Assembly: GCA_022641835.1 (NCBI GenBank)
Contig: CP048721.1
Coordinates: forward strand, 310,001-374,000
Direction of reading: 5' to 3'
Length of the DNA stretch: 64,000 nt
Source: Petasospora fabianii
Lineage: Eukaryota > Ascomycota > Saccharomycetes > Phaffomycetales > Wickerhamomycetaceae
The notes below the pieces were generated by a model. That model was not told the DNA's origin. It ran no database searches and was given only the letters and a program-made list of their open reading frames with translations. Position numbers and translations under genes: made by a program. Positions 39,795-60,598 of the stretch are shown here, piece after piece; the stretch's first letter is position 1; every line of letters begins with the position of its first letter.

Positions 39795-41192
39795 ATGAGA
39801 CTCATCAAAATTTATATTTCTGCCCTCGCCTCGACCGGTGTATTGGCTGCTGCTATTGAATATGGTTCTGCCAAGGGTTCCAAACCCTACTCTCCAGTTG
39901 TTGCATCTATCAACGATGGCTTCATTACCCAGAAGAATAGGGATGAATTCGAGTCAGATACTTCTGAGTCCAACACCATTGAGATCCCAGAAATTTGCAG
40001 CAAGGACCAGTATGTAATTCACAGCCAAGCTGATCTTGATGTGTTGTCAGATCTGTGTCATGATATTATGGGGTCCATCATTGTAAGTAACTATTATGGT
40101 CCCGTGATTGATGCTGGTGATATTCTGACCATTGGTGGTGATTTTGTTATTGTTAATGCTACAAGCTTGGTGAGAGTTCAGCTTTCCAAGGTTGCAGCCA
40201 TCTCTGGTATGTTCAAGTTGAATGAATTGACTGCATTGACAGCTGTGAATGCTCCAGCCTTGAACACAGTGAGGGTCATTGATTGGAGAATTTTGCCCAT
40301 CTTGAGTACCGTGAACTTCGATAACGGCATCAGCGAGGTGAAAAGCATAACGATCTCTGACACATCTTTGGTTGGGTTCTCAGGCTTCGAGGTTGACTCA
40401 TTAGAGACCTTGAATATCAACAACAACAGATTTATGGAGATCATCAACTCCAACTTGAGAGGAATCAACGAGAAGTTAAGTATCAGTGCCAACGCTAAAA
40501 ATGCTGTTGTCGCCTTGCCAAACTTGGAATATGCCAACAATGTCACCATCAGAGATGTCGGTTCCTTGTCTTTGCCGAGTATCGAGGGTGTCAATGCCTC
40601 TATGGAATTGATTAACAACAACTTCCTGTCCATCAAGTTCCCAAAGTTGAAGCATATTGGTGGAACCTTGTCTCTTATTGAAAACTTCAACATGAAAGAT
40701 GTCGAGTTCCCGACTGTCGAAGATGTTGGTGGTGGGTTGATGGTTGTGAATAACACCATGTTGAACAAGATCAATTTCCTTCCAAAGTTGAGCATAGTTG
40801 GTGGTGCTATTGAGTTCGTTGGTGACTTTAAGGAGGCCATCTTCAGTAAGTTAAGTTTAGTGAGAGGAAGTGCACAGATCAAGTCTGTCTCAGATAGTTT
40901 TGATTGTTCCAGATGGATTAGAGGAGATGATCAGAATGGCACAACTGCCAGCAACTCCATCATCAGAGGAGGCAAGATTGTTTGTACCAGTGGTAATATG
41001 CAGCAGACTGTCAAGTACGACCAAGACGGTGCTGTTCTTGACGAGGACATCTCCTTCATCGATGATCACGAGTCTGATGACGCTAAGGTTGGAAATGACA
41101 CAAGCAGTGGCGCACACTCCACCTCAGTAACCAAGGCCCTCCTTGGTGGTTACATCATACTCGCTGGAAGCCATTCGCTTGGTCTCTTGTGA
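39795..41192 (+). CDS. SPS2: GPI-anchored cell-wall protein, ECM33/SPS2 family
   Basis: 465 aa. Cleavable signal peptide about 1-19 (LIKIYISALASTGVLAA), a receptor-L/leucine-rich beta-helix body (about 50-375) with repeats such as LETLNINNNRF, LEYANNVTI and GGTLSLIENFNM, then a polar Ser/Asp/Thr stretch. The hydrophobic C-terminus (LLGGYIILAGSHSLGLL) follows a small-residue site around GNDTSSG: a GPI attachment signal. N-glycosylation sequons are present (NAT, NAS, NNT, NGT). Ecm33 and Sps2 paralogs organise the glucan/mannan layers of the vegetative or spore wall. S. cerevisiae Ecm33 is 429 aa and Sps2 502 aa, and sequence by eye does not separate them. I use SPS2 because of the adjacent SPS1-like kinase; ECM33 function is equally possible. 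Confidence 0.82.
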   Translation: MRLIKIYISALASTGVLAAAIEYGSAKGSKPYSPVVASINDGFITQKNRDEFESDTSESNTIEIPEICSKDQYVIHSQADLDVLSDLCHDIMGSIIVSNYYGPVIDAGDILTIGGDFVIVNATSLVRVQLSKVAAISGMFKLNELTALTAVNAPALNTVRVIDWRILPILSTVNFDNGISEVKSITISDTSLVGFSGFEVDSLETLNINNNRFMEIINSNLRGINEKLSISANAKNAVVALPNLEYANNVTIRDVGSLSLPSIEGVNASMELINNNFLSIKFPKLKHIGGTLSLIENFNMKDVEFPTVEDVGGGLMVVNNTMLNKINFLPKLSIVGGAIEFVGDFKEAIFSKLSLVRGSAQIKSVSDSFDCSRWIRGDDQNGTTASNSIIRGGKIVCTSGNMQQTVKYDQDGAVLDEDISFIDDHESDDAKVGNDTSSGAHSTSVTKALLGGYIILAGSHSLGLL

Positions 41193-45782: not shown

Positions 45783-47741
45783 TCATTGACTAACAATACC
45801 CTTGAAGAATTCCTCAAAAGTTTCAAATCTCTCAACATCCAATAGCGCACTTCTCATATCGCTTGAATATTCATAGCTAATTTCATCATGGAGTGGTTTA
45901 TAGTCAAACTCGAAACCACCATCCAATGGCGGTTCCAAACCGTTAACAGCTCCACTTGACGCACCATCGGCACTGACACCGTTGACAGACCGCACATCGA
46001 CAAGCGTCTTGATGATCTGACCCACAGTGTCCGTAGCATCATTCCTCGTCTCTCCAACGTGATTAAGATGCCAGTACACCTTCGACACCAGGCTCAGATA
46101 CTGTGTACTGAACTTAGCATCGAACCTGCTCTGGAAATCGTACAATGTAACACAACTGTACACAATCTGTGTGAGTAGGAAAGATGGGGACCCCTTCACA
46201 ATGGATTTTGGAAGTTTGAGGAAGCGGGTAAGAATGGACATGCAATAAGCCATCGCGGTGTTATAAGCAATCTCAATGTACTTTGTGGTCTCAGAGTCCA
46301 CTGAGGACTTGTAAGAGGAGAGGAAACGACGGGAGAGTGTAACATGATAAAAGTCGTAGTTGAACATCAGTACACCAGAGACGTCTTGATGGATCAGTTC
46401 ACTCCATTGCACTTTCCACTTGTGAAGGTCTTCGAACTTGAAGCATTGAAGGTCTTCATAGGTGGAGAACTCTTCGTCACGCATCAGATTCATAATGAGA
46501 TCCTTCACATAGAAGAGTTTATGTGCTGTGCGCGCAAGTTGGACAGCAGCGTGATTCACAGTGTCTTCAAGATTACTTTGGGGGAATTTGATTAGAAGGT
46601 CACATACATCAAAGTAATCGTTTGGGATTGTGTGGGGTCTTCCACTGCCAATAGAGTTTTGGAGATGACTTATGGCGAGAAGGGTAAAGATTCTTACATG
46701 GAATAAATCATCTGGTTCATATCTTTTCTCCTTCACGTTGGTTCTAATCTTGTAAAAATTAGAACTCAGCATCATATGCTTGACACCACTACCCGATGTA
46801 ATCCAATTGTCCAACAATGGTTGTGCTGGTTTTCTGGCTATGTTGTACAGTGAGCAGTACAGAATGGCTTCACAGTCATGGTCTGTGAGAGGAGTAGTTG
46901 ATAGCGCCATCGAGAGCATTTTCCTCACAATCCAATAAAGCTGATGCTGTTCCTCAACATATGAGTAGTTTTCGTCAAATCCCATGGCCAGAAGCACAAA
47001 AACAGCAGAGATTAGTGGGTGCTGCTCGACGTAGTCGTTAGAGATGGATTTAATACCACCAGGTACGATCCAGAAGTGGGCAATGTTCAGAAAGTTTGTA
47101 CCAAGCTTCAGACAAAACTCCTTTCTTGGGTAGTAAAAATTGGTGAGGAACTCGGTGCGACAAAGGTCCATGAAACAGGTGTAGTTGTTAATTCTTCTGA
47201 ATAGCTTCCCGTCTAATCGTGAAATAACGTTAAGTGGAGCATTAACAACGGAGTTATCCAAATAGTTACACTTTCCACCAGAGCTAAAACTTCCCCTGTG
47301 TTTTCTTCCATTCGCAGGGCGGACACTCTCGGGGCTCGAGACATCACCTCTGACAAACTGTACCGAGCTTGAATTCGAGTATGTCCGAGTGTCATGTTGT
47401 AACTCATCTAGTTTCTTTAACACGGCATTTAGTCCGTTCTCCAAGCGATCGAGCCTATCTTCTTCTTCCTCGTCATAAGAAGACTTTGATGCCTCTGCAA
47501 TCGAATTAGCTATCTGATCCATCTTCTCCTCAGTTAGCGAACAATCTATCTTCAACACATTGCAACGATGACACTTTCCCGCAACGGGTTCAAAGTCGCA
47601 TCTAGTCTTGAGCTTACGACATGCGTTACAACTCGAAGTTTTACGACGTCTCTTTGCCGGACGACGCTTCTCTGGTTCCGGGGACAGCGTCACTGCGGAC
47701 GGCGTGCGTAGTAACTCAGGGGTCATCGTATTGTTCGACAA
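45783..47741 (-). CDS. Zn2Cys6 transcription factor
   Basis: 652 aa fungal binuclear-cluster regulator. Cysteines at 38, 41, 48, 57, 60 and 67 give C-x2-C-x6-C-x8-C-x2-C-x6-C, preceded by a basic stretch KRRPAKRRRK. A coiled-coil-like segment (about 95-118, LDRLENGLNAVLKKLDELQ) likely serves dimerisation. The middle (about 185-430) looks like a fungal transcription-factor homology region (HPLISAVFVLLAMGF, FHVRIFTLLAISHL). The C-terminus is acidic and may activate. The target cannot be read from sequence. Because S. cerevisiae URC2 (YDR520C), also Zn2Cys6, sits near YDR522C-524C, this could be its counterpart, but orientation differs and I have no alignment. Confidence 0.85.
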   Translation of the reverse strand: MSNNTMTPELLRTPSAVTLSPEPEKRRPAKRRRKTSSCNACRKLKTRCDFEPVAGKCHRCNVLKIDCSLTEEKMDQIANSIAEASKSSYDEEEEDRLDRLENGLNAVLKKLDELQHDTRTYSNSSSVQFVRGDVSSPESVRPANGRKHRGSFSSGGKCNYLDNSVVNAPLNVISRLDGKLFRRINNYTCFMDLCRTEFLTNFYYPRKEFCLKLGTNFLNIAHFWIVPGGIKSISNDYVEQHPLISAVFVLLAMGFDENYSYVEEQHQLYWIVRKMLSMALSTTPLTDHDCEAILYCSLYNIARKPAQPLLDNWITSGSGVKHMMLSSNFYKIRTNVKEKRYEPDDLFHVRIFTLLAISHLQNSIGSGRPHTIPNDYFDVCDLLIKFPQSNLEDTVNHAAVQLARTAHKLFYVKDLIMNLMRDEEFSTYEDLQCFKFEDLHKWKVQWSELIHQDVSGVLMFNYDFYHVTLSRRFLSSYKSSVDSETTKYIEIAYNTAMAYCMSILTRFLKLPKSIVKGSPSFLLTQIVYSCVTLYDFQSRFDAKFSTQYLSLVSKVYWHLNHVGETRNDATDTVGQIIKTLVDVRSVNGVSADGASSGAVNGLEPPLDGGFEFDYKPLHDEISYEYSSDMRSALLDVERFETFEEFFKGIVSQ

Positions 47742-50423: not shown

Positions 50424-51995
50424 ATGTCCTCGGGCGAGAAGAAAAGACTGGCAGATGACTCGGAGATCTACGAGATGCTTAACAAAATCCGACGTTGTGA
50501 GATCAACCCCGAGATGGCGTCCTTTGATATACTCTCCTCCTTGGCCATGGCGGAAACGGCAGGCTCGTTCCTCACCGGTGCCGAGTATCTCACAAAGTGT
50601 CCCAGTGCCTCACAGCTGGAATTGATAAGGTCAACGTCATTGGACAAGGCAGTGCTTGAGCAGTTGGACAACCCTCTTGTCATGCTCGCGCTCCGTCTTA
50701 GGCAGGAGTACGATGAGGGTAACATCCCATTGTTCGATAAACTTGTTGAGTTCTCAAAGACCCACCCAGTGAAGCTGGAACCTGACGAATACATGAAAAT
50801 GTTCTACGAGAATGCACATCACTTCCTACCGCCTCTACCGGATATCAGAGATTGGGAGCTCAAGGATAAGATTGTGAACTGGAATGATCTGGGAGAAGAC
50901 CTTGAATATTTTGTTCAACTTGGGCGTGGAAAGTTTCAAGAGGTGGTCACAGAGCTTCTTTACATCAGATTCCCTGACCAGAATGTCATTGCCGATATCA
51001 CAGCACACCTGTTCAGTCCAGATGCAGCTAGAACTTGGGCCGTGCTGTATCAACTGCCCATGAGTGGGAAGACACCACCAGCGGAGTTGTTCTACAGTTA
51101 CTTGGGGGCACATCACATCTCAAGTGTACCAAGGGAAGAGGAGTTGCAACTCCAAGAAGTAGTTTCTACGCTGATTCAGCCTATGGTGATGCAATATGAT
51201 CAGACGAAGCCATTGGAGTTTGCTAAAGAAAACTTGGTTAAGATGAGTGACAAAGTTTTCTTTAAGACGATTCATTCCACAGCGTGGGATGATAACGAGT
51301 ACCATCTTGTACATGCCTATGTGGGGACAGAAACTACATGTGTACTTCTTGGAGTGGGGGCAGCCAGCACTGTGGAAGATGCACAAATGGCTGCCGCTAC
51401 CAATGCCACGATCAAGGAGTCACAACTGACACGCCTCTTCAACAATCTTACCGAACTTGAAAAGAGCGAACTACACCACAAACCACGAGCCACAATGAAC
51501 AAGCACGACCAACCACAATCTAGAACATATGGCCAATTTGACCAACACTCTCAATACCCACAGAAAGCGACAGCAGCAGGCGTATCTGCATATGAGACCA
51601 CGCCTTCACCTGCGCAGAATGGTTATAATGCAAGCGAACTTGCAGTGAAATCCTCCGTGTCCAATAATATGGGTTCAGTGCTCAACGATGATTATAAGCT
51701 TCTTCAGAATATCAATTTTGCTGAAGTAATTCTGGCCCCAGATATAGATGACGACGCGGCCATTGATATGTCATCGAAGGAGAAGTTGAACCACTTGCTA
51801 ATTGAAAAGAGGTATTCACCAGCGGAGTACAAGACATCAAAGATTTCAAATGTTGAGGTGATGGTGTTGTGTTTCATTGAGAAGAAACCGCTTGTGAGGG
51901 CCATCTCAGGGAACAAAAAGAAGGCTGGACAAGTATGCGCGCAGTTGATCTTGAACTACTGGGACTACTTCTTCACGAAGTTGCCACCACGTTGA
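50424..51995 (+). CDS. Degenerate RNase III-fold protein with two dsRBD-like domains (Rnt1/Dcr1-like, probably inactive)
   Basis: 523 aa from ATG 50424, the first ATG in frame. The middle aligns by eye with S. cerevisiae Rnt1: LPPLPDIRDWELKD corresponds to the region before the RNase III domain, then DLEYFVQLGRGKF...LLYIRFPD to HNERLEFLGDSIL...IIYNKFPD, AARTWAVLYQL to QIKQWSIMYNF, and ELFYSYLGA to DVFEAYIGG. In this alignment only the first signature Glu (161) is kept. The second Glu reads Val164, the Asp reads Arg168, and the later Asp/Glu pair reads Glu221/Tyr224. The metal site should therefore be lost. A dsRBD-like domain follows (about 259-326), then a Gln/Ser-rich linker, then a second (about 449-515; KKKAGQVCAQLIL helix). 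One RNase III domain plus two dsRBDs is the budding-yeast Dicer layout. Alternatives: a mitochondrial ribosomal mL44-type protein or an Rnt1 paralog with a new role. Confidence 0.7.
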   Translation: MSSGEKKRLADDSEIYEMLNKIRRCEINPEMASFDILSSLAMAETAGSFLTGAEYLTKCPSASQLELIRSTSLDKAVLEQLDNPLVMLALRLRQEYDEGNIPLFDKLVEFSKTHPVKLEPDEYMKMFYENAHHFLPPLPDIRDWELKDKIVNWNDLGEDLEYFVQLGRGKFQEVVTELLYIRFPDQNVIADITAHLFSPDAARTWAVLYQLPMSGKTPPAELFYSYLGAHHISSVPREEELQLQEVVSTLIQPMVMQYDQTKPLEFAKENLVKMSDKVFFKTIHSTAWDDNEYHLVHAYVGTETTCVLLGVGAASTVEDAQMAAATNATIKESQLTRLFNNLTELEKSELHHKPRATMNKHDQPQSRTYGQFDQHSQYPQKATAAGVSAYETTPSPAQNGYNASELAVKSSVSNNMGSVLNDDYKLLQNINFAEVILAPDIDDDAAIDMSSKEKLNHLLIEKRYSPAEYKTSKISNVEVMVLCFIEKKPLVRAISGNKKKAGQVCAQLILNYWDYFFTKLPPR

Positions 51996-59080: not shown

Positions 59081-60598
59081 CTATGGGATCCCAGCTTGTT
59101 GGTAAGCGGCCTGTTTCTGCTTTTTGGACTTTAGCGGGCCACCATCATGAATGATCTTGAAGTTGATGAGCCCAGTGACAGTGGTGTTGAATGTTAAATC
59201 GAAATCGACTTCTGTCCAATGATCTATTTGTGCAAACTCCTCCGGTGGACGAACTTGAGATTTACCCTTACTAGCAACGGGGAGAATCGATGGTGTAGTC
59301 AATGTTTGAGCCTCTTTGCCATCAGCTGGAGAGACTCTGACTGCAATATGGTCTTCATTGCGACCGACATGTGTGATTTTCCAGGTTTGTTGATTATTAG
59401 ACTCCTTGAGCTTCTGACTCAGAACTCTACCTGCGATTCCTCTAACAATAGGGATGTGGTCAACTTGGAACTTGAATGTGTGGATGACGTCCTCAGTGAA
59501 GACTTCTGGAAGGTTTGAGACAAGCTTGGAGATGATATCAGCCTTTGTGTCGTAGTCAAGGGTGTATGATGTGTAGTGTGTACTCTTGCGAAGTGACGAT
59601 GTTGCAAGTTTTGGTAGTGGATTTAGGTTATGCTGCTTCGTGATCAGCTCGTTATGGCGCTCAAGCATGTCCTCGACCACCAACCTTTCAGCCTTTGGAT
59701 CCAAGAATACTGGTTCAGTAAATACAGGGACCAACGTTGAGATCAGATCAGGTCTTACAGCTTCGGTATACTCATTCAAGCACTTTTGAAACCCATTCAA
59801 CTGACTTTTTCGATCATCATACAACACAACTTCCTTGATGTCAGGGTATGCATCCAGAACATCCACGAGTACATGTGTCTTGTACTCAATTGTGTTGGAG
59901 AAATCACCAGATCTCAACATCAATCCATCGAGCTCATCATAAAGTCCTTTGGACTTTAGCATCTCCTTCAATATATCAGCAAAAAGCTCTTGTCTGCGAC
60001 CAGTCATGACAATAGTGAGTGCCTCTTCATCCTCCAATGACATTCTTAGCAGTTCAACAACATCTTCGTTCCAATATCCCTCCCATGCCTTTTTCTGCTC
60101 CTCAACGAAGCCATCTCCAAGATTTCTCAACACGAGCACTTCTCTCCACCAACCACCAGTGGCAAGATGTTCTGCACTTGTGAGCATACCAACAGTAGCT
60201 TCATTGAAGAGTAGTGGGTTGGGAGCTGGTGATTTGAATAGTGTGTTGTCGAAGTCATAGACGTGAAACTTTGTGATATGTGAGTTTCTCGATGGACGGG
60301 TATCGCAGGAGTAGTATCGTACTGGGTCTGTCTTGGAGATCATTGGAGTGGTACGGTTGTGAGGGGTAGCTTTCTTTCGAGGTGGAAGGGATGAGGACGT
60401 CCTTGGGCGCGTTGTGCGTGGGTTGGATGCTCTGAAGGGCGGAATTAATTGGGGTTGGCCGTGGGATGATTCATCAAGAGATGTTATATGCTGAGATACC
60501 TGGGAGTGAGGTTGAGATTGTAGTGCCTCTGCGGGTGACGATGGATGTTCTGAAGCGTGAGTCATATCAGGAGTATGTGACCTCCTGTCTGAACTCAT
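59081..60598 (-). CDS. HAD-superfamily protein, Swiss-Army-Knife RNA-repair-like
   Basis: 505 aa. A disordered N-terminus (about 1-105, Ser/Pro/Arg-rich) and then a HAD fold: motif I HVYDFDNTLF with Asp about 115 and 117, motif II ALTIVMTGRR with Thr, and a late acidic motif EVVLYDDRKS. This resembles fungal HAD domains of the SAK RNA-repair-like family, in which the name comes from predicted tRNA-ligase-type RNA-end processing; to my knowledge no member is well characterised in yeast. The C-terminal half (about 300-505) is unassigned and ends in a basic stretch (KSKKQKQAAYQ). Phosphatase activity on RNA ends is a family-level guess. Confidence 0.75.
   Translation of the reverse strand: MSSDRRSHTPDMTHASEHPSSPAEALQSQPHSQVSQHITSLDESSHGQPQLIPPFRASNPRTTRPRTSSSLPPRKKATPHNRTTPMISKTDPVRYYSCDTRPSRNSHITKFHVYDFDNTLFKSPAPNPLLFNEATVGMLTSAEHLATGGWWREVLVLRNLGDGFVEEQKKAWEGYWNEDVVELLRMSLEDEEALTIVMTGRRQELFADILKEMLKSKGLYDELDGLMLRSGDFSNTIEYKTHVLVDVLDAYPDIKEVVLYDDRKSQLNGFQKCLNEYTEAVRPDLISTLVPVFTEPVFLDPKAERLVVEDMLERHNELITKQHNLNPLPKLATSSLRKSTHYTSYTLDYDTKADIISKLVSNLPEVFTEDVIHTFKFQVDHIPIVRGIAGRVLSQKLKESNNQQTWKITHVGRNEDHIAVRVSPADGKEAQTLTTPSILPVASKGKSQVRPPEEFAQIDHWTEVDFDLTFNTTVTGLINFKIIHDGGPLKSKKQKQAAYQQAGIP

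Follow-up and report, generated by a model that had tools for sequence, protein, structure and literature searches.

A gene on the forward strand of a 64,000-nucleotide stretch of the Petasospora fabianii genome (the window; positions 310001-374000 of contig 7 in a 12.3 Mb assembly) is confirmed to encode a relative of the RNase III enzymes of the Rnt1/Dcr1 type. The organism, of the order Phaffomycetales, was formerly named Cyberlindnera fabianii and is called C. fabianii below. The protein has kept the RNase III fold, five of the six catalytic side chains of Rnt1 are replaced in it, the same losses are found in its relatives, and sequence conservation has shifted to the second of its two double-stranded RNA-binding domains (dsRBDs). 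We read it, with a probability of roughly 0.62, as a maintained, catalytically dead offshoot of the Rnt1/Dcr1 family that works as a non-cutting binder of double-stranded RNA (dsRNA), and we refer to it as the pseudo-RNase III.

The open reading frame at 50424-51995 is intact, with its ATG at 50424 and a stop codon that ends at 51995, and the 523-residue frame proposed in a first-pass annotation of the window was exact in its coordinates. BON22_1635, in a second C. fabianii record, is the same protein with the identical start methionine and 98% identity; 8 of the 523 residues differ, none of them in either dsRBD. A chance or wrongly set frame was rejected on the grounds of the 523 codons, the same start in the second record, and full-length relatives. 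The first-pass annotation had read one RNase III fold and two dsRBDs as the layout of budding-yeast Dcr1, which holds, but it had missed an N-terminal domain (NTD) of the Rnt1/Dcr1 type that precedes the RNase III domain and was found with HHalign, the match starting at profile column 35. The second, C-terminal dsRBD at residues 446-517 resembles that of budding-yeast Dcr1 in layout, which does not imply shared descent. The features of the gene are as follows (pLDDT, predicted local distance difference test):

50424..51995, forward strand: whole pseudo-RNase III gene, 523 amino acids plus stop codon; BON22_1635 in the second record
50556..50768, forward strand: Rnt1/Dcr1-type NTD, residues 45-115; sub-threshold Pfam RNase_3_N match, HHalign match to the Rnt1 NTD
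50829..51203, forward strand: RNase III fold with dismantled active site, residues 136-260; model pLDDT 84, superposed on 7dey and 5t16
50904..50927, forward strand: remnant of the ERLEFLGD motif, residues 161-168 (EYFVQLGR); catalytic Glu replaced by V164, catalytic Asp by R168
51084..51095, forward strand: second catalytic segment, residues 221-224 (ELFY); Asp replaced by E221, Glu by Y224
51204..51428, forward strand: dsRBD1, residues 261-335; alpha-beta-beta-beta-alpha, superposes on 1t4o
51429..51758, forward strand: low-confidence, fast-evolving linker, residues 336-445; pLDDT <50 at 347-429, 12-45% identity
51759..51974, forward strand: dsRBD2, residues 446-517, with the highest conservation in the protein; Pfam dsrm, 54-83% identity, NKKKAG in 5/5 distinct family members

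Homology and fold

A Pfam scan of the single protein gave no RNase III domain match, and dsrm and RNase_3_N stayed below their cut-offs (20.5 bits against 23, and 19.1 bits at residues 59-114 against 26.8); in the genome-wide search, dsrm reached 23.6 bits, above the cut-off. In the relative P0002, RNase_3_N fell just short of its cut-off (26.4 bits). Searches of the PDB with the single protein (phmmer) and with a dsRBD2 profile (E up to 0.1) returned no matches. A protein search with the query found four proteins, namely BON22_1635 (P0001) and three relatives, P0002, P0003 and P0004, and a second round with the family alignment, in which the 7996 candidates with the most shared words were scored, added no protein to these four. 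The three relatives are predicted full-length proteins of 533-544 amino acids with 28-32% identity to the query over the full alignment. Together with a paralogue encoded elsewhere in the C. fabianii genome, the query and these relatives constitute five distinct family members, P0001 being left out as the same gene.

The relationship emerged from profiles. The profile of the query and P0002-P0004 matched Rnt1-type chains in the PDB, with E 8.5e-4 for the Pichia stipitis RNase III/Dicer and 0.0039 for the Rnt1 dsRBD, and gave weaker rows for a maltose-binding fusion chain (E 0.018), which looks unrelated, and for mL44 (E 0.023). With the paralogue included, the family profile aligned in HHalign with the Rnt1 of the same genome over NTD, RNase III domain and dsRBD1 (98.8%, E 4.5e-17), and the family matched a four-member Rnt1/Dcr1 profile at 99.5% (E 2.6e-22), as compared with controls of 0.4% for an unrelated neighbour, 0.2% for mL57, and 7.4% for mL44 over 38 dsRBD columns. 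A tree of 10 sequences, again without P0001, sets the query family apart from the canonical enzymes and a further divergent protein, L005 (see below), with a support of 98 and inner splits of 57-96; this tree separates neither a Dcr1 from an Rnt1 origin, nor does it assign P0002-P0004 as orthologues to the query or to the paralogue.

Because the first full-length structure model had a mean pLDDT of only 59, the part comprising the RNase III domain and dsRBD1 was modelled again alone. The remodelled RNase III core (pLDDT 84) superposes with 2.4 Å over 121 residues on the P. stipitis Dicer (7dey) and with 2.6 Å over 127 residues on Rnt1 (5t16), and dsRBD1 with 2.5 Å over 77 residues on the Rnt1 dsRBD (1t4o). 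These are domain-wise VIA fits; the whole-chain superpositions of Foldseek were poor, with root-mean-square deviations of 14-19 Å for the Rnt1 rows, because the two domains are differently placed. The P. stipitis Dicer is tied with Rnt1 for the top VIA Z, and mL44 ranks below them. A superposition of the kind recommended in the first-pass annotation thus came out in favor of the Dicer and Rnt1 folds, and mL44 or mL57 as the nearest fold, named there, together with mitochondrial localization, as an outcome that would speak against a Dicer-like protein, did not appear.

Loss of the catalytic residues

MAFFT and HHalign agree in placing V164, R168, E221 and Y224 of the pseudo-RNase III in the columns of E208, D212, D279 and E282 of the C. 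fabianii Rnt1, and the columns of N245 and K275 hold P199 and T217 (residue numbers counted on the alignment). Five of the six catalytic side chains of Rnt1 are replaced, and the remaining one is changed from Asp to Glu. What is given here and below as described or reported in the literature comes from excerpts of published work (PMC11047096, PMC3356342, PMC7175516, PMC12663654, PMC5499181, PMC8708148, PMC9291653, PMC9508840). In E. coli RNase III, four side chains, E41, D45, D114 and E117, are described as catalytic, all but D114 being in direct contact with Mg, and the spacing of these numbers fits the two motifs. V164, R168 and Y224 stand at the Mg-touching positions, and therefore all three Mg-touching acids are gone, with the fourth acid conservatively changed. 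For Rnt1, two further catalytic side chains are described, N5 and K6, which we tentatively equate with N245 and K275 on the basis of invariant alignment columns.

The losses are shared. In the columns of E208, D212, E282, N245 and K275, the Rnt1 residue is gone in all five distinct members: the E208 column holds V, S, S, I and a stop codon, the D212 column R, R, K, M and R, and the E282 column Y, F, F, Y and Y. The D279 column is acidic (D or E) in 5/5. The catalytic losses are thus common, at the level of sequence columns, to the three relatives and the paralogue, a pattern that the first-pass annotation had listed as potential support. The ERLEF motif also contributes a dimer contact through its Phe, which is likewise replaced throughout the family (Q, Y, S, Q, A) and kept in L005.

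The signature region, which comes after a gap, is difficult to align; still, the motif Gly (Rnt1 G211) is invariant and the two methods concur, also in rejecting an acidic ligand missed elsewhere in the query. The first-pass pairing of E161, V164, R168, E221 and Y224 with the canonical positions is the same in both alignments, and its statement that the acidic ligands are replaced is correct for V164, R168 and Y224; for E221 it is not, as this is a conservative exchange in a column that is acidic in every member. Nor did Glu161 turn out to be a surviving acidic ligand, since it sits at the position of E. coli E38, which is non-catalytic, and is absent from the other four distinct members. E38 and E65 of the E. 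coli enzyme are described as further acids of the valley, apart from the catalytic four, whose removal is reported to stabilize the protein-RNA complex; the Rnt1 E232 column, which we take as the counterpart of E65, is a gap in the query and the family. As far as the alignment can tell, the set of four catalytic acids that characterizes RNase III enzymes, and with it the cutting site of Dcr1, is not present.

Conservation shift to dsRBD2

Identity among the family members is 54-83% in dsRBD2, 30-57% in the RNase III domain, and 12-45% in the linker, and the segment NKKKAG, which presumably lies where canonical dsRBDs grip RNA, is invariant in all five distinct members. Between the query gene and its paralogue, the only DNA pair compared, nonsynonymous and synonymous divergence (dN and dS) are 0.37 and 1.4 in dsRBD2, and 0.82 and about 3 in the RNase III domain, with dS at or near saturation and shuffled codons giving similar synonymous values. 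Purifying selection focused on dsRBD2 fits these data, if only roughly.

Other RNase III genes, RNA interference components and gene neighborhood

A PF00636 search of the genome found three places, which are one canonical Rnt1 (NERLEFIGD, 562 amino acids) and two proteins that we take to be mL44 and mL57 from their length and build. The intact Rnt1 that the first-pass annotation had suggested looking for is therefore present. Five places in the genome matched dsrm: mL44, Rnt1, the query, the paralogue and L005. The latter two are located as follows:

contig 11, 376458-378116 (L010:2956-4617), reverse strand: paralogue of the query, 33% identical, 553-codon frame
contig 1, near 121-122 kb (L011:7015-7944), reverse strand: L005, divergent pseudo-RNase III with one dsRBD, ~4 kb from RNT1

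Other frames lie between the L005 and RNT1 frames. L005 matches the Rnt1/Dcr1 profile at 97.2%, the genome's own Rnt1 with E 3.2e-5, and the P. stipitis RNase III with E 1.3e-6, and a protein search among 970 candidates gave a single match of 309 amino acids with 98% identity. Its residues in the E208, D212, D279 and E282 columns are V, E, D and K; it has thus lost two catalytic acids out of four, keeps one, and has another changed from Asp to Glu.

A Piwi search of the C. fabianii genome gave no match, in a setting with no fungal positive control, where one of 14 control genomes (Methanocaldococcus jannaschii) was positive; searches for PAZ and RNA-dependent RNA polymerase were empty as well, but their controls were silent too, so they are uninformative. 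Candida utilis is a relative of C. fabianii. According to the literature excerpts, it lacks a Dicer-like RNase and Argonaute.

The genes flanking the pseudo-RNase III are all ordinary, with a serine carboxypeptidase upstream and an MFAP1-like protein, a RibD_C-domain protein and Rpb5 downstream. Elsewhere in the window, the frames at 39795-41192 (forward strand, 465 amino acids) and 45783-47741 (reverse strand, 652 amino acids) match nothing in Pfam at E up to 1e-5, and a 505-amino-acid protein at 59081-60598 (reverse strand) matches HAD_SAK_1, a HAD domain whose name derives from RNA-repair proteins.

Proposed function and alternative readings

The RNase III build is kept and nearly all cutting residues are lost; therefore, the protein probably binds dsRNA without cutting it. 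Binding of dsRNA or structured RNA by an RNase III body that has no blade and one well-kept dsRBD is the function that we consider most likely from the sequence. In such a protein, dsRBD2 would be the main RNA grip, and the RNase III valley, largely stripped of acids, could serve as a docking or dimer surface rather than as a blade. The N-terminal part of Rnt1 is reported to stabilize its homodimer, which suggests that the kept NTD may link the pseudo-RNase III to itself or to Rnt1. As an outcome, structured RNAs that would otherwise be cut by Rnt1 might be shielded, held or presented, candidates being precursor ribosomal RNA, small nucleolar RNA precursors and hairpin mRNAs, or other long dsRNA might be bound, and the canonical Rnt1 of the genome would be there to do the cutting.

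Several observations weigh against this interpretation. The usual dsRBD motifs, the GPxH loop and the lysines at the start of the second helix, are incomplete, as dsRBD1 is missing the lysines and dsRBD2 the loop. With the pair P0002/P0003 set aside, the members share only 30-34% identity in the RNase III domain, a level that is also compatible with relaxed selection; the linker is unconstrained between query and paralogue (dN 1.40, dS 1.38); all dN/dS comparisons are rough because dS is at or near saturation; and the paralogue carries a single in-frame stop, a TGA at codon 191 that aligns with the lost catalytic Glu E208 and may be a strain allele, an assembly error, a broken gene or a site of read-through. 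The interpretation given in the first-pass annotation is borne out in part. Its view that the protein appears maintained draws support from dsRBD2, with its conservation and dN < dS, and from the full-length relatives. The same low RNase III identity, unconstrained linker and TGA, along with the missing Piwi match, would be expected of a Dcr1 remnant that has no present function and decays slowly after the loss of RNA interference. We nevertheless hold such a decay to be improbable, as full-length proteins exist in three relatives and in two C. fabianii records, dsRBD2 is strongly conserved with dN below dS, and the same kinds of catalytic replacement occur in all five members.

A different role would be that of a non-catalytic partner of Rnt1, in which a mixed dimer with one cutting site nicks one strand or shifts substrate choice, comparable to the trypanosome editing endonucleases. 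The homodimer-stabilizing NTD is kept, a single genome contains several pseudo-RNase III genes along with one canonical Rnt1, and the kinetoplastid complexes, as described in the literature excerpts, set a precedent; the ERLEF Phe, however, is lost from all five family members, even though L005 kept it, and we regard the partnership as conceivable but doubtful. Taken further, one cutting Rnt1 could be served by a small set of non-cutting paralogues that pair through their NTDs and RNase III domains, and the mixed dimers would nick one strand or choose among substrates, as a fungal counterpart, derived from a Dicer whose pathway was lost, of the kinetoplastid editing endonucleases; this is a speculative picture to which we attach a small chance. 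The acidic D279 column could be taken to mean that the protein remains a nuclease whose active site has been rearranged, but all five members have replacements in the remaining five catalytic columns, among them Arg, Lys or Met in place of Asp and Tyr or Phe in place of Glu, which makes continued cutting very improbable. mL44 combines an RNase III fold with a dsRBD and has no catalysis, and mL44 chains appear in the fold lists and in the PDB profile search; the reading of the protein as an mL44- or mL57-type mitochondrial ribosomal protein was rejected and has a nearly negligible chance, as both have separate genes in C. fabianii and match the family more weakly in profile and fold.

Comparison with known systems

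The non-cutting dsRNA-binding protein that we propose shares with Rnt1 the ordered alignment of NTD, RNase III fold and dsRBD1, and differs in the loss of the catalytic side chains, in the extra linker and dsRBD2, and in that C. fabianii has a separate canonical Rnt1 gene. With the budding-yeast Dcr1 of K. polysporus and the P. stipitis Dicer, it has in common the NTD, one RNase III domain and two dsRBDs; their dsRNA-cutting active site is absent from it. Noncanonical yeast Dicers are thought to stem from duplication of an RNase III gene, according to the literature excerpts. Inactive relatives of RNase III are also described there, as in maize RNC1 and the kinetoplastid KREPB proteins of RNA editing complexes; the latter are mitochondrial, distant in sequence, and have a zinc finger in place of dsRBDs. 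mL44 and mL57 are non-catalytic RNase III folds as well.

Candida albicans Cdl1 is described as an RNase III paralogue that has no activity, has no known function and exists next to an active enzyme. The presumably inactive C. fabianii protein is likened to it by description only; C. albicans differs in having Ago1 and an active Dcr1. Our two protein searches with the query family, of limited sensitivity, yielded four proteins, none of them named Candida albicans. In the excerpts of open-licence literature, we noticed no inactive RNase III paralogue of a budding yeast other than Cdl1, and these excerpts contained no family that combines the Dcr1 layout, a dead active site, a canonical Rnt1, a broken second copy, and conservation moved to dsRBD2.

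In summary, inactive RNase III relatives are already known, and what is new to our knowledge is a small family of this kind in a yeast that seemingly has no RNA interference, where one canonical Rnt1 occurs beside the query, a paralogue with one TGA, and a third, divergent pseudo-RNase III near RNT1. The fate of noncanonical Dicer-type proteins once RNA interference is lost has been little explored. The family would be a case of an Rnt1/Dcr1-type protein that dropped cutting and yet conserves a dsRBD most strongly, in a genome in which no Argonaute was found, and C. fabianii, with its canonical Rnt1, two open-frame pseudo-RNase III genes and a third with one stop codon, may offer a simple test ground for this question.
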